From a bacterium (GTDB lineage Bacteria > BMS3Abin14), in the NCBI GenBank assembly GCA_020350725.1, contig CP070719.1:848659-854782 (forward strand): a stretch of 6,124 bases of DNA, in the 5' to 3' direction. The position numbers and the translations under genes were made by a program. This document shows positions 296 through 6,124 of the stretch, piece by piece. A model generated the notes under the pieces. The model was not told the origin of the DNA and did no database searches. It saw only the letters and a list, made by a program, of their open reading frames with translations. Every line of letters begins with the position of its first letter. Within the stretch, counting starts at the first letter, position 1.

Positions 296-547
296 GGCTG
301 TCCCTTCTCAACCAAAAAAGATAGTTCCCCGTTCACGGTCCACAGTGGGGAATCAGAGCATTAGAGCATTAGAAATTAGAGATTAGAGATTAGAGATCAA
401 TCCAAAGTCCAAAATCCAAAAAGACAGTTCACAGTTCACCGTTCACCGTTCCCGGTTGGGAAACAGCCGTGATTTGTGATTCGTGATTCGTGATTCGAAA
501 AGACTGGTTCACAGTTCACAGTTCACCGTTCACGGTTCCCAGTTATA

Positions 548-586
548 GATTGCTTCACGCGGGTTCCGGTTCGCAATGACAACCGC
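548..586 (+). repeat. 39-bp repeat element E, copy 1
   Basis: The element begins GATTGCTTCAC and ends TTCGCAATGACAACCGC. ATTGC (549-553) can pair with GCAAT (573-577). An alternative hairpin pairs CGGTT with AACCG in the right half. The first base overlaps the last heptad of the preceding GTTCACN array. Confidence 0.9.
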
Positions 587-633
587 ATTTTCTCTCCGCC
601 TCCCCGTTGCTGGCGATGCACGTTCCATGTTCC

Positions 634-761
634 AGGTATTAACTGTGAACTGGGAGCTGAGTCCTAAGTACTAAGTGATATGTGATAAGAAAAAGCTCAG
701 TATACTTATCTCTTAGCACTTATCTCTTAGCACTAAATATCCTTCCCCCCTCGCCCCCTCG
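634..761 (+). repeat. 128-bp repeat element H, copy 1
   Basis: This is identical base for base to 2663-2790. It contains a run of heptads at 663-690 (CCTAAGT, ACTAAGT, GATATGT, GATAAGA) and a tandem duplication of the 14-mer CTTATCTCTTAGCA (705-718 and 719-732). The left arm TAAGTGATATGTGATAAG (672-689) is an imperfect inverted copy of the 14-mer region, matching at 15 of 18 positions, so a hairpin across the element is possible. It ends in a C-rich tract leading to the F block. Confidence 0.92.
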
Positions 762-764
762 CCT

Positions 765-799
765 TCTCTGGACGCTGGCCTCTGGGCGCTGGACTGATT
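765..799 (+). repeat. Five-heptad repeat block F, copy 1
   Basis: Heptads TCTCTGG, ACGCTGG, CCTCTGG, GCGCTGG and ACTGATT are followed by the tail TCTCTCCGCGTC. The same five-heptad layout occurs at 3578, 3717, 4469 and 4541. Confidence 0.85.
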
Positions 800-1002
800 T
801 CTCTCCGCGTCCCCTCTTCGCCCTGCATTGGGGTCCAAGGTTTCAGGCCTGTTTGCCGAGACGTGAGGCGAAGTGAGTCCTGAAGTGATAATTGCTCAGG
901 CAGAAAGGTGCCGGCTTTTCATCTGTCAGTTGTCTCCTGTCGTGTACCACCTGTCTGTCAGGACAAAAGACACAATCACCATCTCGTCGTTCCTTGTCAA
1001 GC

Positions 1003-1018
1003 GTGGAATTGGCAGACG
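1003..1018 (+). other. tRNA-Leu D-arm-like fragment
   Basis: The bases GTGGAATTGGCAGACG match the usual position 8 to D-arm region of bacterial tRNA-Leu. Just downstream, TTCAGAA (1021-1027) looks like a CAG-anticodon loop, but the flanking bases do not form an anticodon stem. No acceptor stem, variable arm or TTCGA-type T-loop follows. This is not a functional tRNA gene. It may be a relic, for instance of an old integration site, or chance. Confidence 0.25.
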
Positions 1019-1528
1019 GATTCAGAACGGTCCGGGTTGAGAGGCCAAGATGCAGGATCCCGCTTTTGTGTCGCCTCCCCACGGAGGCCCCCGCCGCCGG
1101 TCTGACGTTGCCATACTGAACACCTGTCCGGAAATCAAACACCTGCCGCGGAAGCACGGGGCCCCCGGTCGGGGCGACAGGCGGATGCGGTGGGACGGTT
1201 GTGTTCCGGCTCCGGTCCCGGGAGTGAGGGGGGTCACAAACCGGTCCGAGTCCGACTGCCCCGGTCACTGACCGGGCGGAGGAGGAAACCGGCGTCGTCT
1301 CATTTCTGTTGGAAAATAGGGTACTTAACGCCTTCATTGAGTCCCGGCCGCGGCGGGAAAATTCCGCCTTTCCGGCGGCGGCTTCCCCCATCCCTGCCTC
1401 CCTTCGCGGCCAATGATCCGGCCGCAACAGGGCCAGGTCTCCTGGGAAGGATGAGGCCGGGGCGGCTTCTGGTATGGCCCGTGCAATCCGATGGTCGTGC
1501 GTTGAGCGGGCCGTCGGCCGGTCCACGG

Positions 1529-1540
1529 AAGGAGAAAGGG
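1529..1540 (+). promoter_or_regulatory. Ribosome binding site that fixes the start at 1549
   Basis: AAGGAG (1529-1534) and AAAGGG (1535-1540) lie 14 and 8 bases before ATG at 1549. The upstream in-frame ATG at 1474 has no comparable site and would put 25 charged, Arg-rich residues before the signal peptide. Confidence 0.7.
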
Positions 1541-1548
1541 TTGGTCCC

Positions 1549-2304
1549 ATGAAATGTGTCAAATGCCTGGCCTTGACCATCCTGTTCGTTGCCCCTTCGG
1601 TCGCCTGGGGAGGCCTATACGGCGGTTACCTGGAGATCTGGGACGATGGGGTGGGTTCCGTCATGCTCTCCACAGGCCCGGGAGCGGCCGTCAAGCTCTC
1701 GGCCGATCCACCTGCGTGGATGCCGGATGCAGAGGCTTTCCTGCTCAAGGTGGATTGGCCTGAATACGCTGTTGCCGCCACCGGCAGCCGTGGGGCCGCG
1801 ATCCCCTCTCTGGACCTGACGGGCCTTCCGGTTTCCACGCCAGCGACGGTGCCGGAGGACAGAACCCGCTACAGGATCTTGCCCGACCCGGACGGGGAGA
1901 TGGATGTGATTGCCATGTCCCCGGACATGGCGACCATGGTCAGCTATCTCTGGGCCGAGATGTTCACGGGAGTCGATATCGTCCGGGAGCTGAGGATCTT
2001 CGCCGAGAGGATGCGCCGGGACATCCCGGGGGATGACAGTGCGGAAGCCGGCAGGGACTGCAGGCCCTCATGGAAGTGGAGGTTCTCATACAGGACGGCT
2101 GATGACCTCGAGGTCATCGCAAGGTTCAGCGGCAGGGGCGACCTGGCGAAACCGGGGATGCTCACTCTGGAGGTGAATGCCGCCGACGTCCTCCTCCATG
2201 AGATCGGCATTTCGGCCTCCCTCCGGGAGAACGGATTCGGGATCGAACTGGATGACGTGGAGCTGAACAACACAATGCTGGCCAGCCTGACGATGGAGTT
2301 CTAG
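1549..2304 (+). CDS. Exported protein of unknown function
   Basis: I do not recognise this 251-residue protein. The start at 1549 gives a short signal peptide: MKCVKC, a hydrophobic core LALTILFVAPSVA, and likely cleavage after Ala19 or soon after. The mature protein is therefore probably periplasmic or secreted. There is no lipobox; the two cysteines (3 and 6) lie before the hydrophobic core, which is unusual. The mature part begins GLYGGYLEIWDDG and is acidic overall. A more charged helical-looking stretch (about 138-160, ELRIFAERMRRD) sits in the middle. The C-terminal half (175-251) alternates hydrophobic and charged residues in a beta-rich pattern (WKWRFSYR, LTLEVNAADVLLHEI, GIELDDVELNN). 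It ends in Phe after a hydrophobic/polar alternation, which is faintly reminiscent of outer-membrane or surface beta proteins, but no family can be named. It is the only plus-strand gene here, isolated by a 715-base spacer upstream and repeats 30 bases downstream. Confidence 0.78.
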   Translation: MKCVKCLALTILFVAPSVAWGGLYGGYLEIWDDGVGSVMLSTGPGAAVKLSADPPAWMPDAEAFLLKVDWPEYAVAATGSRGAAIPSLDLTGLPVSTPATVPEDRTRYRILPDPDGEMDVIAMSPDMATMVSYLWAEMFTGVDIVRELRIFAERMRRDIPGDDSAEAGRDCRPSWKWRFSYRTADDLEVIARFSGRGDLAKPGMLTLEVNAADVLLHEIGISASLRENGFGIELDDVELNNTMLASLTMEF

Positions 2305-2589
2305 GACGGAAGGGGCGAAAGGCTACAGTTTCCGGTTCACATTTCACGGTTCACGGTGGGAATCAGAGCATTAGAGCATTGGAAATTAGAGATTAGAGTT
2401 CAATCCAAAGTCCAAAATATAACTTCCGTGATTTGTGATTTGTAATTCGTGATTCGGAAAGACCAGTTCACGGTTCCCGGTTCACCGTTCAGGATTGGGA
2501 AACCGTCGTGATTGGTGATTCGTGATTCGGAGATCAATCCAAAATCCAAAATCCAAAAAAAAGTTCATAGTTCCCTGTTCACAGTTAAA

Positions 2590-2628
2590 GATTGCTTCAC
2601 ACAGGTGTCGGTTCGCAATGACGACCGT
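2590..2628 (+). repeat. 39-bp repeat element E, copy 2
   Basis: It differs from the other copies mainly in the centre (ACAGGTGTCGG) and at two right-end bases (GACGACCGT). The ATTGC/GCAAT pairing is intact. Confidence 0.88.
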
Positions 2629-2662
2629 TTCCTCCGTGTCTGATAACCATGTCCCATGTTCA

Positions 2663-2790
2663 AGGTATTAACTGTGAACTGGGAGCTGAGTCCTAAGTAC
2701 TAAGTGATATGTGATAAGAAAAAGCTCAGTATACTTATCTCTTAGCACTTATCTCTTAGCACTAAATATCCTTCCCCCCTCGCCCCCTCG
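2663..2790 (+). repeat. 128-bp repeat element H, copy 2
   Basis: Exact copy of 634-761 at a distance of 2029 bases. The perfect identity contrasts with the drifted A-D heptads on its left, and points to recent duplication, gene conversion or constraint. Confidence 0.92.
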
Positions 2791-2816
2791 GGTAGGTCCC
2801 CGCGTCCTCAATCCCG

Positions 2817-3410
2817 CTATTTGCCCTTTCTCAGGCTTGGAAAGCGGAAGCCCCTTCTCGGGGGAACGGGGGAGACTATGCCCGTTTCGCTCACGAACCG
2901 GAGGTCCTCCACCGTGTAGAATGCCTGAGGATTGAACTTCTTGATCGAGTCGACCACCCCATGCAGATGTTTTCTCTTGATCACGGTGAAGAGGATCTTC
3001 ACCGGTCCGCGGCTGCCCTCGGCATTCACCGATGTAACGATGTGGTTTGCCTCCCGAAGATATTTCTCCAGATCAGTGGCATCCCGCTGGGTAATGATCC
3101 GAATGATCTGATAACCAAAGGCGATGCGACGTTCAATGGTAATGCCGATGTAGTTACCCACCGCAAAACCGCCTGCATAGGCCACGTAATTGACCACGTT
3201 GGTGAGGTTGCTCATGATCTGACTGATGGCGAACAGCCAGATGAGGATCTCGAAGAAGCCGGCCAGGGCGGCGACAGTCCTGAGGTCCCTCGAGATGAAG
3301 ATAATACGCAGGGTACCGATAGTGACGTCGGTGATCCTGGCCAGAAAGATGAGCAGGGGGAGAAGGACCAGGGAAAAAACATTGCTATTTATTATGGACA
3401 CCTCTGACAC
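2817..3410 (-). CDS. UPF0316 / DUF2179-type integral membrane protein
   Basis: A 197-residue membrane protein. Three hydrophobic helices lie at about 12-32, 44-64 and 70-92. The family-typical stretch RITDVTIGTLRIIFISRD (25-42) continues into VAALAGFFEILIWLFAIS (46-63). The remainder (about 98-175) is a soluble alpha/beta domain resembling DUF2179: IIRIITQRDATDLEKYL, then VKILFTVIKRKHL, then PQAFYTVEDLR near the end. This matches UPF0316 proteins such as Bacillus YebE in architecture and approximate length. Their biochemical role is unknown, though DUF2179 domains are suspected small-ligand or regulatory modules. The start is GTG at 3410-3408, chosen because GGAG lies six bases upstream. The gene ends (TAG, 2817-2819) about nine bases before repeat mosaic II; the basic tail PPRRGFRFPSLRKGK may be lineage-specific. 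Its neighbours give no functional clue. Confidence 0.85.
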   Translation of the reverse strand: MSEVSIINSNVFSLVLLPLLIFLARITDVTIGTLRIIFISRDLRTVAALAGFFEILIWLFAISQIMSNLTNVVNYVAYAGGFAVGNYIGITIERRIAFGYQIIRIITQRDATDLEKYLREANHIVTSVNAEGSRGPVKILFTVIKRKHLHGVVDSIKKFNPQAFYTVEDLRFVSETGIVSPVPPRRGFRFPSLRKGK

Positions 3411-3416
3411 GATCGA

Positions 3417-3420
3417 CTCC
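3417..3420 (-). promoter_or_regulatory. Ribosome binding site supporting the GTG start at 3410
   Basis: Read on the minus strand, CCGGAG lies six bases before GTG (3410-3408). No ATG in frame has a better site. Confidence 0.6.
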
Positions 3421-3424
3421 GGTT

Positions 3425-3555
3425 AACTCTTATTGCATCAGCTTACGAAACACCACTCCAGATTCCAGAACCAAAGAGAACGTTTCCAGCTAACAGTTTC
3501 CAATTTTAAATGGAAGCGGTTTACCGCAAACCGGGAATTGGATTACAGTGCCAAG
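3425..3555. other. Non-repeat leader region of the UPF0316-type gene, with an inverted repeat
   Basis: This is the only upstream region of a minus-strand gene here that is not immediately occupied by repeats. CGGTTT (3517-3522) and AAACCG (3528-3533) form a perfect six-base inverted repeat with a five-base loop. It has no U-tract. It could be an operator or a transcript hairpin. I cannot pick a convincing -35/-10 pair. Confidence 0.35.
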
Positions 3556-3577
3556 TCGCCCCTCCGCCCTATCTCCC

Positions 3578-3612
3578 CCTCTGGATCTTGACCTCTGGAC
3601 TCTGAACTCATG
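3578..3612 (+). repeat. Five-heptad repeat block F, copy 2
   Basis: Heptads CCTCTGG, ATCTTGA, CCTCTGG, ACTCTGA and ACTCATG. This is the most drifted copy. Confidence 0.8.
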
Positions 3613-3636
3613 TCCCCCCGCGTTCGCCTTTCCCGA

Positions 3637-3675
3637 GATTGCTTCACACGGGCATCTGTTCGCAATGACAACCGC
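3637..3675 (+). repeat. 39-bp repeat element E, copy 3
   Basis: Ends are conserved and the centre reads CACGGGCATCTG. Here it is flanked by F blocks on both sides instead of a GTTCACN array, showing that E can travel independently of module A. Confidence 0.88.
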
Positions 3676-3716
3676 TTGTTCGCCCCCTCGCCCTATCTCC
3701 CCCTCGCCCATGCGCC

Positions 3717-3751
3717 CCTCTGGACGCCGGCCTCTGGACCCTGGACTCATT
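3717..3751 (+). repeat. Five-heptad repeat block F, copy 3
   Basis: Heptads CCTCTGG, ACGCCGG, CCTCTGG, ACCCTGG and ACTCATT, followed by TCCCCCCGCGTC. Confidence 0.85.
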
Positions 3752-3785
3752 TCCCCCCGCGTCAGGCGTCCCTCCGGAACGATCC

Positions 3786-4253
3786 TTAGAAGATCAGGGT
3801 CAATCGTTCGGCTGATTTACGCAGCCTCAGGGAGAGGATCCTGCAGATACCCTTGAGAAGCCTGACCCCCAGCTGAGGATGTTCCTGGAAAAAGAGCTCC
3901 AGGTTGTCCCGGGTGAGGACCAGCAGTTCCGAGTCCTCCAGGATCAGCACCGTCGCCGACCGGGGGTGACTGTCGAACATGGCGAGCTCACCAAGGATGG
4001 ACCCCTTGCCCAGCTGCGCCAGGATCACCCACCTGCCTGCGAATTCGGTCTGCTTTTTGACCTCCACCTCGCCCGACCTGATAACGGCAATAAAGTCCCC
4101 GGCATCGCCCTCCTCGAACAGGGTCGCTCCCGATGGGTATTGCCGGGACTCGAAGTAGGGCGCGATGACCTCCAGGTCACTGTCGGCAAAGGAGCGGAAG
4201 AGGCTGGGCTCACTCTTAAGGGCCAGAACGACCTCGTTGATCCTGTCTTCCAT
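3786..4253 (-). CDS. Stand-alone cyclic nucleotide-binding domain protein
   Basis: A 155-residue protein made almost entirely of one cNMP-binding (Crp/Fnr sensor-type) domain. After an N-terminal helix (1-20), the beta-roll runs from about 28 to 115, with FEEGDAGDFIAVIRSGEVEV (46-65) as the typical central strands. The phosphate-binding cassette is GELAMFDSHPRSATV (88-102). Glu89, Arg98 and Ser99 correspond to the ribose- and phosphate-contacting residues of CAP-like domains, so ligand binding is plausible. A C-terminal helix (about 117-150) follows and the protein ends without a helix-turn-helix or any catalytic domain. It therefore probably acts through protein partners, not as a transcription factor itself. 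Start ATG at 4253-4251 has GGAGG five bases upstream (4259-4263). Stop is TAA. Repeat mosaic IV starts about 29 bases upstream of the start codon. The family is sure; ligand and partner are unknown. Confidence 0.9.
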   Translation of the reverse strand: MEDRINEVVLALKSEPSLFRSFADSDLEVIAPYFESRQYPSGATLFEEGDAGDFIAVIRSGEVEVKKQTEFAGRWVILAQLGKGSILGELAMFDSHPRSATVLILEDSELLVLTRDNLELFFQEHPQLGVRLLKGICRILSLRLRKSAERLTLIF

Positions 4254-4413
4254 GGGAGCCTCCGGGGAACAAAGTTAAAACAGTTCCCAGTTCATCGTTC
4301 ACGGTTTAAAGGCAGAGCATTAGAGAATTAGAAATTAGAACATTAGAAATTTATCCAAAGTCCCAAATCCAAAAAGACGGTTCACAGTTCACGGTTCCCT
4401 GTTCACAGTTAGA

Positions 4414-4452
4414 GATTGTTTCACACGGTCTCCGGTTCGCAATGACAACCGC
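4414..4452 (+). repeat. 39-bp repeat element E, copy 4
   Basis: The left stem base is changed (ATTGT instead of ATTGC). In a plus-strand transcript this leaves a G-U pair with GCAAT. The first base overlaps the final heptad GTTAGAG of the array before it. Confidence 0.88.
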
Positions 4453-4468
4453 CTTTTCCCCGCGTCTC

Positions 4469-4503
4469 CCTCTGGACGCTGGCCTCTGGGCTCTGGACTC
4501 ATT
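4469..4503 (+). repeat. Five-heptad repeat block F, copy 4
   Basis: Heptads CCTCTGG, ACGCTGG, CCTCTGG, GCTCTGG and ACTCATT, followed by TCTCCCC. Confidence 0.87.
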
Positions 4504-4540
4504 TCTCCCCATCGCCCCCTCGGGTAGGTCCCCGCGTCTC

Positions 4541-4575
4541 CCTCTGGAAGCTGGACTCCGGACTCTGGACTCATT
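4541..4575 (+). repeat. Five-heptad repeat block F, copy 5 (contains a stop codon used by a gene)
   Basis: Heptads CCTCTGG, AAGCTGG, ACTCCGG, ACTCTGG and ACTCATT. The TCA at 4571-4573 is, on the minus strand, the TGA stop of the AcuI-like gene. The tail of the block continues into that gene's coding sequence. Confidence 0.87.
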
Positions 4576-5593
4576 TCTCCCCGCGTCCTTTTTCCCCCTT
4601 CAGGTCCACGACCACCCTTCCCCTCTGCCCTCCTCGGAGGATGAGCTCGATCTCGGGGTCCAGTTCGTCAAGCGAGACCTCCCTGGTCAGGCGGTGGAGC
4701 CCGTCCACCTTCCAGTCGCCGCCAAGGAGGCGCCAGATCTCCCTGCGGACAGGCATGGGGCAGTGTTGAGAGCTGATGCCGATCAGGCTGATGCCCCTGA
4801 GGATGAACGGGTAGACGGTGGTGTTCAGCTCGGCCGAAGCCACGTTGCCGCAACAGGTGACCGCCGAGTGAAGCATGGCCCTCCTGACGGCCGTTTCCAG
4901 GAGATCCCCCCCCACCGTGTCCACCACTCCTGCCCACCTCTCCGGCAGGAGCGGCTTATCCGAACGGTCCACGGCCTCCTCCCGGCTGATGACCTCCCGG
5001 GCCCCCAGATCCAGGAGATAAGGTCGTTGGTCGGATTTTCCGGTGACGGCCACGACATCGTGGCCCATCCCGGAGAGAATGGCAACGGCGAAACCACCCA
5101 CTCCACCGGTTGCCCCGGTCACCAGGATCTCACCCCGGCCGGGTGCGACGCCATGCTCACGGAGCATGTAAACGGACAGGGCCGCCGTAAATCCGGCCGT
5201 GCCGTATGCCATACTCTCCCGAAGGGACAGACCCTCGGGAAGTCCGACCACCCAGGCGGCCGGCACTCTTATGTACTGGCCGAAACCGCCGGGCGTGTTC
5301 ATTCCCAGGTCGTAACTGGTCACGATCACCTTGTCGCCGGGACGGAATTCTTCGGTGGCGCTCATCTCGACCACACCGGCGGCGTCGATGCCGGGCGTGT
5401 GGGGGAAGTTCCGGGTTACCCCCCGGTTGCCGGTGGCCGAAAGGGCATCCTTGTAGTTCAGAGAGGAGTAACTGACGCATACCAGAACCTCGCCCTCGGG
5501 AAGATCGTCAACCGACCGCTCCGTGACCCGCCTGACGAACTTCCCATCGCCGGACTCCTCAACCAGCATGGCTCTGTATGTTTTATCGGTCAT
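4571..5593 (-). CDS. acuI: YhdH/AcuI-family NADPH-dependent oxidoreductase (probable acrylyl-CoA reductase)
   Basis: A 340-residue zinc-independent medium-chain dehydrogenase/reductase. The GroES-like N-terminal domain carries SLNYKDALSATGNRGVTRNF (44-63), FPHTPGIDAAGVV (63-75) and RPGDKVIVTSYDLGMNTPGG (84-103). The Rossmann domain has the glycine-rich NADPH motif VTGATGGVGG (158-167), TGKS (184-187) and WAGVVDTVGG (220-229). PFILRGISLIGISS (262-275) is also diagnostic of the YhdH/AcuI subfamily. Members reduce acryloyl-CoA to propionyl-CoA with NADPH, for example in DMSP or 3-hydroxypropionate metabolism, or detoxify acrylate; the substrate here is inferred from family only. No zinc-ligand cysteine set is present. 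Start at 5593 is chosen over an upstream in-frame ATG (5626) because AGGGAGGA lies just before it and the family begins there. The protein is slightly longer than E. coli YhdH at the C-terminus: the last residues GRGEK and the stop come from a repeat module. Confidence 0.9.
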   Translation of the reverse strand: MTDKTYRAMLVEESGDGKFVRRVTERSVDDLPEGEVLVCVSYSSLNYKDALSATGNRGVTRNFPHTPGIDAAGVVEMSATEEFRPGDKVIVTSYDLGMNTPGGFGQYIRVPAAWVVGLPEGLSLRESMAYGTAGFTAALSVYMLREHGVAPGRGEILVTGATGGVGGFAVAILSGMGHDVVAVTGKSDQRPYLLDLGAREVISREEAVDRSDKPLLPERWAGVVDTVGGDLLETAVRRAMLHSAVTCCGNVASAELNTTVYPFILRGISLIGISSQHCPMPVRREIWRLLGGDWKVDGLHRLTREVSLDELDPEIELILRGGQRGRVVVDLKGEKGRGEK

Positions 5594-5597
5594 GGGA

Positions 5598-5605
5598 TCC
5601 TCCCT
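5598..5605 (-). promoter_or_regulatory. Ribosome binding site fixing the start of the AcuI-like gene
   Basis: AGGGAGGA on the minus strand, with GGAGG five bases before ATG (5593-5591). This favours the internal ATG over the one at 5626. Confidence 0.75.
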
Positions 5606-5804
5606 GGGGTATCGACTCCGAGCCAAGATCTAAATTCCAAAAAGACAGTTCACGGCTCACGGTGGGTGAACCAGTGATTCGTGATTTGTGATCTGTGATT
5701 CGAAAAAGACAAGTTCACAGTTCACCGTTTACGGTTCACAGTTGAAAGCCGTCGTGATTTGTGATTCGGAAAAGCTAGTTCACAGTTCCCGGTTCACTGT
5801 CAGA

Positions 5805-5843
5805 GATTGCTTCACACAGGCATCGGTTCGCGATGACAACCGC
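5805..5843 (+). repeat. 39-bp repeat element E, copy 5
   Basis: The right stem base is changed (GCGAT instead of GCAAT), again leaving a G-U pair in a plus-strand transcript. The first base overlaps the last heptad GTCAGAG of the preceding array. Confidence 0.88.
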
Positions 5844-5895
5844 TTGTTCGCCCTCTCGCCCTATCGCCCCATCTCCCCCTCGCAATTACTGTGGC

Positions 5896-5939
5896 CCTCT
5901 GTGGCGGCGTCTCAGGGGACGCCTCTGTGTCCTCTGTGG
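5896..5939 (+). repeat. CCTCTGTGG direct repeats flanking a small hairpin (element J)
   Basis: Three 9-base units (CCTCTGTGG 5896-5904, CCTCTGTGT 5922-5930, CCTCTGTGG 5931-5939). A perfect six-base inverted repeat, GGCGTC (5906-5911) with GACGCC (5918-5923), lies between the first and second. There is no U-tract after the stem, so it is not called a terminator. Seen once in this window. Confidence 0.75.
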
Positions 5940-5958
5940 TAAAGCTTTTCATCATCGG

Positions 5959-5997
5959 GATTGCTTCACGCGGTTTCCTGTTCGCAATGACAACCGC
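5959..5997 (+). repeat. 39-bp repeat element E, copy 6
   Basis: Centre CGCGGTTTCCTG with conserved ends. This is the second E within one mosaic, only 115 bases after copy 5, and it leads towards element H. Confidence 0.88.
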
Positions 5998-6024
5998 TTC
6001 CTCCGTGTATGATAGCCATGTTCC

Positions 6025-6124
6025 AGGTATTGACTGTGAACGGTGAACGGAGAGCTGAGTCCTAAGTACTCAGTGATATGTGATGAGTAACAGCTCAGTA
6101 TACTTATCTCTTATCACTTATCTC
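6025..6124 (+). repeat. Repeat element H, copy 3 (diverged, truncated by window edge)
   Basis: It aligns with the first about 100 bases of H. Differences include an extra GTGAACG near the left end, ACTCAGT for ACTAAGT, and CTTATCA for CTTAGCA in the tandem 14-mer region. The central CTCAGTATACTTATCTCTTA is unchanged. The right part lies outside the window. Confidence 0.85.

Follow-up and report, generated by a model that had tools for sequence, protein, structure and literature searches.

Unlike tandem repeats in the intergenic DNA of one bacterial family share a seven-base step that may come from a duplication process

Why should tandem repeats of unlike sequence, lying side by side between the genes of one bacterium, have a common period of seven bases? 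The question is raised by a stretch of 6,124 nucleotides (the window; contig CP070719.1, positions 848,659 to 854,782, assembly GCA_020350725.1, lineage BMS3Abin14), which is one entire contig of a 2.78 Mb host genome (G000), itself stored as numerous contigs with spacers of 100 N between them. Repeats in the window were located by direct sequence reading and Tandem Repeats Finder (TRF), and their copies across the genome by blastn. Eight period-7 arrays reached a score of at least 12, against a mean of 0.005 in 200 dinucleotide shuffles; at the same score period 8 gave a single array and periods 2–6 and 9–13 gave no array. A preliminary description of this DNA had attributed the period to one generating mechanism or one reading machinery, not to independent slippage. 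A single generating mechanism is supported by 52 arrays with unique flanks, by isolated two-copy duplications and by five relatives with partly different heptamers. We see about an even chance that an intrinsic seven-base duplication process works on the intergenic DNA of this family, or formerly did so, the likeliest source being slippage in which the polymerase sets the step. The heptamer arrays of the first repeat block, and one further array, are as follows.

355 to 397, + strand: ATTAGA-N array, left end partly of period 8, scored array 368–397 (TRF)
399 to 421, + strand: TCCAAA-N array (TRF)
424 to 451, + strand: GTTCAC-N array (TRF, array scoring)
468 to 497, + strand: GTGATT-N array, in register with 427–468 (sequence reading, TRF, array scoring)
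507 to 548, + strand: GTTCAC-N array, four exact cores followed by GTTCCCA and GTTATAG (sequence reading, TRF, scoring)
704 to 734, + strand: ACTTATCTCTTAGC in 2.2 copies, a 14-base unit (2 x 7) (TRF)
765 to 799, + strand: CTCTGG heptads (sequence reading, TRF)
2536 to 2558, + strand: TCCAAAA in 3.3 perfect copies (TRF, array scoring)

The arrays lie where the preliminary description had placed them, with small differences. Three ATTAGAG units at 375–395 and three TCCAAAA units at 2538–2558 are exact, and the CTCTGG/GCTGG heptads at 765–799 and 4469–4503, the heptads of an inverted repeat called element H (663–690) and a 14-bp duplication within 704–734 are all present. The array at 401–421 begins with TCCAAAG, followed by two TCCAAAA units; three GTGATTC units do stand at 469–496, but one GTGATTT precedes them; and the count of six GTTCACN units at 507–548 is generous, only four having the GTTCAC core. 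The common register of 427–503 is real, with units starting at 427, 434, 441, 448, 455, 462, 469, 476, 483 and 490, and it is broken before 507. Other copies of the composite element described below have this spacing too, so the register was inherited with the element and counts as one fact. Most modules do have period 7, but some have period 8 instead, namely the CCCCCTCG modules at 746–763, 2775–2790, 3680–3718 and 5848–5883 and a AGAGCATT module around 358–374. The C-rich CCCCCTCG family accompanies the heptamer composite and is the sole other frequent short period.

The period test that had been proposed for the whole genome was run on 1.99 Mb of G000, taken in stretches, and bore out the period; coding and intergenic classes came from a simple codon-usage script and are approximate. 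Over all the analysed host DNA, 7-mers recurred at lag 7 thirteen times as often as in a second-order Markov surrogate, with further peaks at lags 14 and 21. Each Mb of intergenic DNA had 5112 recurrences at lag 7, 4496 at lag 14 and 2262 at lag 21, with about 150 at unrelated lags, so that the lag-7 value is about 34 times that of unrelated lags; in coding DNA any excess was slight (169 per Mb for lag 7, background about 75). Period-7 arrays numbered 389 in intergenic and 19 in coding DNA, and none was found in the Markov surrogate. The other intergenic arrays comprised 53 of period 8 and between 0 and 6 at periods 2–6 and 9–13. The 389 arrays represent 68 canonical heptamers, among which G-rich units with runs of at least three G are only minor types, such as AAAGGGG, and their median distance to the 5' end of a gene is 209 bp. 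Arrays with unique flanks numbered 52 at period 7 and 0–4 at each of the periods 4–6 and 8–13. Ninety-two of the 389 lie within 300 bp of a contig end, which indicates that the assembly breaks within these repeats and that array copy numbers are lower bounds.

The seven-base step was also observed at the smallest possible scale. Unique intergenic DNA, defined as the 326 kb without any repeat match, contained 148 exact two-copy duplications of 7 bp, versus 21.6 expected. Observed and expected numbers for the other unit lengths were 340 and 317 for 5 bp (ratio 1.1), 134 and 83 for 6 bp (1.6), 12 and 4.4 for 8 bp (2.7, from 12 cases) and 3 and 1 for 9 bp (3, from three cases). Coding DNA held 119 two-copy 7-bp duplications, about as its size predicts. 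We then considered isolated pairs, whose flanks are unlike the unit and which are hence not pieces of still-visible longer arrays. At distance 7 there were 37 isolated pairs with a run of seven bases versus 12.9 expected (z 6.7), and 96 with six-base runs versus 56. No excess of isolated pairs occurred at distance 8, and at distance 6 the excess was mild when all run lengths were taken together, which the codon periodicity of uncalled genes would lead one to expect. Fifty-nine isolated pairs represent 58 different sequences. The step is already there at the two-copy stage, that is, at birth, and this is the main new evidence.

Relatives were sampled as stretches of DNA. Period 7 was the main short period in five of them (G002, G004, G008, G003 and G007, 78–130 kb each), with 54–344 arrays per Mb. 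Their heptamers partly differ from those of the host, several of these genomes having others such as CTGCGTN, TTGAACN and GACACTA, and are partly common to the relatives (TCCAAA-N, GTTCAC-N, CTCTGG-N). Two further relatives were nearly or entirely free of arrays in the sampled DNA: one array was found in 78 kb of G001, a genome that is 73% complete, and none in 30 kb of G009, where a pattern search of the whole genome gave 36 CTCTGG-N matches. The idea that G003, G007 and G009 lack heptamers was rejected; GTTCAC-N is missing there, but G003 and G007 have other heptamers and G003 and G009 have CTCTGG-N. In G007 triplets of AAACCT-N, used as a reversed control pattern, gave 44 matches, and this control is itself a heptamer array type of that genome.

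Farther afield, no lag-7 peak was present in a stretch of Escherichia coli and 32 named contigs, and a Trichormus plasmid stretch contained only two such arrays in 100 kb and no lag-7 peak. Triplets of TCCAAA-N were detected in 12 of 145 genomes, including G040 from an unrelated family, so this kind of array is scattered across bacteria, in line with what has been published on other heptamers. The G040 genome gave 45 perfect TCCAAAA triplet matches and none for the reversed control pattern; the same heptamer may have arisen there by convergence or arrived by transfer.

These observations can be joined in the following scheme. The first product would be a two-copy 7-bp duplication of any pre-existing sequence. 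Arrays would next grow or shrink by entire units (7 or 14 bp), and point mutations would alter the heptamer over time; some arrays would have fused into a composite element of about 450 bp, spread genome-wide by copying. Differences in unit number were observed: insertions between repeat copies measured 7 bp in 543 cases and 14 bp in 84, versus 21 of 5 bp, 74 of 6 bp and 179 of 8 bp, and the longer differences were mainly 7-bp and 14-bp insertions or deletions. We infer that the process is slippage, with strand misalignment in DNA replication or repair as the likeliest source and the polymerase–DNA complex setting the step. Slippage is preferred, with moderate confidence, because it explains the varied sequence, the 7-bp birth and the unit-sized insertions and deletions.

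The unit itself showed a structure of six bases plus one. Logos of the units combine conserved columns with one or two free ones: the free base of GTTCAC-N is G in.41, A in.40, C in.16 and T in.03 of cases, and the other logos read GTGATT-N (all four bases), ATTRGA-N, TCCAAA-R and CNCTGG-M. Logos pool related copies, and a separate test was therefore made on unique-flank arrays and relatives. Among 41 arrays with two variants, 14 (34%) had both in one column, versus 3–8% in neutral slippage simulations filtered by the same detection rule as the real arrays. This same-column test replaced a count of columns with three or more bases, which was weak (33 versus 26 expected, p 0.03). Exact matches of six bases at distance 7 numbered 263 in unique intergenic DNA versus 62 expected, with no such shoulder at lag 21, and exact matches of seven or more bases were likewise in excess. 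Examples from relatives are CTGCGT followed by A/A/G/C/T (G002) and TTGAAC followed by C/G/A (G003). The unit is thus often a fixed hexamer with one varying base, beyond what neutral slippage leads one to expect, with the caveats that G002 and G008 share ancestry and that mutational hot spots may contribute.

Several points weigh against slippage as a full account. Neutral slippage scatters variants over seven columns, unlike the observed same-column excess, and it explains neither the free column nor the restriction of arrays to some genomes. Replicative polymerases are universal in bacteria while arrays are missing from most genomes, so an extra factor is needed. The isolated pairs could be worn remnants of longer arrays, and genes were called with a home-made script. 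Judging from the heptamers that relatives have in common, the shared period may also be partly inherited. MutS and Y-family polymerases were looked for in 12 genomes of the family. Judged by MutS, the cause does not lie in a loss of mismatch repair, MutS_V matches being present in 12 of 12, and the presence of a Y-family polymerase does not discriminate, being found in 11 of 12. The sole genome in which no Y-family polymerase was found is G001, which is nearly array-free in its sampled stretch and only 73% complete.

Many of the 389 intergenic arrays are parts of one dispersed, ordered composite element. Genome-wide, its order is GTTCAC, ATTAGA, TCCAAA, GTTCAC, GTGATT and GTTCAC arrays, then a short hairpin (hairpin B), then element H, then period-8 C-rich and CTCTGG arrays. 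The window contains the following copies and parts.

324 to 763, + strand: first composite copy, with the six arrays in this order, hairpin B and element H (sequence, blastn)
547 to 586, + strand: hairpin B, AGATTGCTTCAC..GTTCGCAATGACAACCGC, with further copies at 2589–2627, 3636–3675, 4413–4452, 5804–5843 and 5959–5997
648 to 763, + strand: element H, an inverted repeat with heptad arms, 37 copies in the genome, second window copy at 2677–2792
2330 to 2792, + strand: second composite copy, including that element H (sequence, TRF, blastn), with arrays at 2333–2357, 2365–2398, 2428–2456, 2466–2491, 2506–2529 and 2536–2558, + strand
3583 to 3760, + strand: partial composite, with CTCTGG heptads, hairpin B (3636–3675) and a period-8 TCGCCCCC array (3680–3718) (sequence, TRF)
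4277 to 4580, + strand: third composite, with GTTCAC, ATTAGA (period 8/15), TCCAAA and GTTCAC arrays (sequence, TRF), hairpin B (4413–4452) and CTCTGG heptads (4470–4503, 4541–4572), + strand
5632 to 6124, + strand: fourth composite, with GTGATT (5674–5702) and GTTCAC (5712–5743) arrays, hairpin B (5804–5843 and 5959–5997) and an element H truncated by the contig end (sequence, TRF)

The modules had been called unrelated; their sequences are indeed unlike, but many belong to this one copied composite. Hairpin B gave 126 matches in the analysed host DNA, 125 of them intergenic, and half of the matches lie no more than 80 bp from a heptamer array. The arms of element H read AGTCCTAAGT..AAG and CTTATC..AGGACT, and diverged copies keep the arms while their loop sequences are quite different. 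No Rfam match was found for the repeats, hairpin B included, even at an E value of 1, and a plasmid similarity search gave no match. The intergenic hairpin B resembles a palindrome, and G000 carries two IS200-like (insertion sequence 200-like) genes with PF01797. Dispersal by such transposases, the repetitive extragenic palindrome-associated tyrosine transposases (RAYT) of REP/BIME repeats, nevertheless appears unlikely: no hairpin B or array lies within 3 kb of either gene, and relatives with fewer arrays have the genes as well.

Dispersal on this scale is the strength of the leading alternative, in which a few heptamer arrays born by chance were copied as composites and then diverged, seven being a historical accident. 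Repeated sequence flanks 337 of the 389 arrays, the copy numbers of hairpin B and element H point the same way, and several heptamers are common across the family. Inheritance and dispersal do not readily explain the 52 unique-flank arrays, the 7-fold excess that two-copy 7-bp duplications reach in unique intergenic DNA, the near-complete variety of sequence among isolated pairs, or the dominance of different heptamers in some relatives, and we regard this account as rather unlikely. We consider selection for a reader less probable still. Here the arrays would be DNA or RNA sites whose bound protein touches six bases and skips a one-base spacer, function keeping the period. The hexamer with one free base in GTTCAC-N, GTGATT-N, ATTRGA-N, TCCAAA-R and others, together with the same-column excess, would fit such sites, and like proposals have been published for Geobacter (PMC2700814) and Beggiatoaceae (PMC4679880). 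The one reading machinery of the preliminary description nevertheless gained no support: arrays are equally dense in divergent, tandem and convergent intergenic regions (0.72–0.75 per kb), so nothing in placement supports a reader, dozens of unlike hexamers occur within one genome, and the 7-bp length is seen from the outset in isolated pairs of many sequences. A wider version, in which a six-plus-one copying process or a nucleic-acid reader moving in seven-base steps makes or keeps arrays whatever their sequence, is to our minds equally improbable; if it were true, its gene would be expected in families with an intergenic lag-7 peak.

Scars of transposition would account for an exact 7-bp birth of many sequences and for the lack of other periods, if an element with a 7-bp target-site duplication left tandem duplications on excision that ordinary slippage then expanded. 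The same element would be required in relatives and distant bacteria, the two IS200-like genes stand apart from arrays and hairpin B, and only 10 long repeat pairs and no abundant multi-copy insertion sequence were found in the analysed DNA, with the limit that short-read assembly can hide such elements; we hold this origin to be very unlikely. Least probable of all is templated or end-joining copying of six bases plus one uncopied base per cycle, which the six-plus-one unit and the six-base matches at distance 7 would suit, since exact matches of seven and more bases are in excess too, no RVT_1 match for telomerase-like repeat addition by a reverse transcriptase was found in G000, and no Ku for end joining with one added base was found in the 12 family genomes (the Bacillus subtilis control was positive). 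The intrinsic duplication process remains our preferred explanation. The neighbouring genes in the window are given for context only.

2817 to 3410, - strand: gene for a DUF5698 and DUF2179 protein
3786 to 4253, - strand: gene for a cyclic-nucleotide-binding domain protein
4571 to 5626, - strand: gene for a zinc-type dehydrogenase, quinone oxidoreductase-like

The family offers a clean test system, in which the step is fixed at seven and the sequences change between genera. Births show up as isolated pairs of copies, and any proposed mechanism has to account quantitatively for the free seventh base. Were the step the property of one enzyme, that enzyme could be traced by setting family members with a strong signal against those with a weak one or none.

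According to PMC4692102, Mrazek et al. (2007) reported an excess of heptameric simple sequence repeats in bacteria and proposed a polymerase-footprint explanation; examples are GGGAATC in Xanthomonas and GGGGA(C/T)T in Nostoc. PMC4692102 adds that such repeats lack detailed literature coverage and that their role is open. They resemble the present arrays in the over-representation of period 7, the mostly intergenic location and the degenerate unit positions; here, in contrast, many unlike heptamers are joined in order within a dispersed composite, 7-specific two-copy births were tested in unique DNA, and the units are not of the G-quadruplex type. The short tandemly repeated repetitive (STRR) sequences of the cyanobacterium Calothrix (cited in PMC4692102) likewise comprise several tandem heptanucleotides per genome. 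Geobacter metallireducens has multicopy elements, including 49 copies with four tandem GGACCGG, and more hepta- and octanucleotide sites (PMC2700814). They too are dispersed, with 3–5 tandem heptamers or octamers of several kinds per genome, but were treated as separate regulator sites, partly within genes and in opposite-strand pairs, whereas our arrays are almost all intergenic. Inverted pairing of the Geobacter type was rejected here, near pairs of like arrays being direct in 12.3% and inverted in 2.8% of cases (random pairs, 7.4% and 7.5%). The TAACTGA direct repeats of marine Beggiatoaceae, Cyanobacteria and Bacteroidetes (PMC4679880) are also short intergenic tandem heptamers scattered across phyla; they consist of a single dominant heptamer, mostly just upstream of start codons, whereas the heptamers observed here are many and are placed without regard to the orientation of neighbouring genes. 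The heptamer excess in bacteria had been made known by these three papers. What is new is the 7-specific birth, the six-plus-one unit and a family-wide period with changing heptamers.

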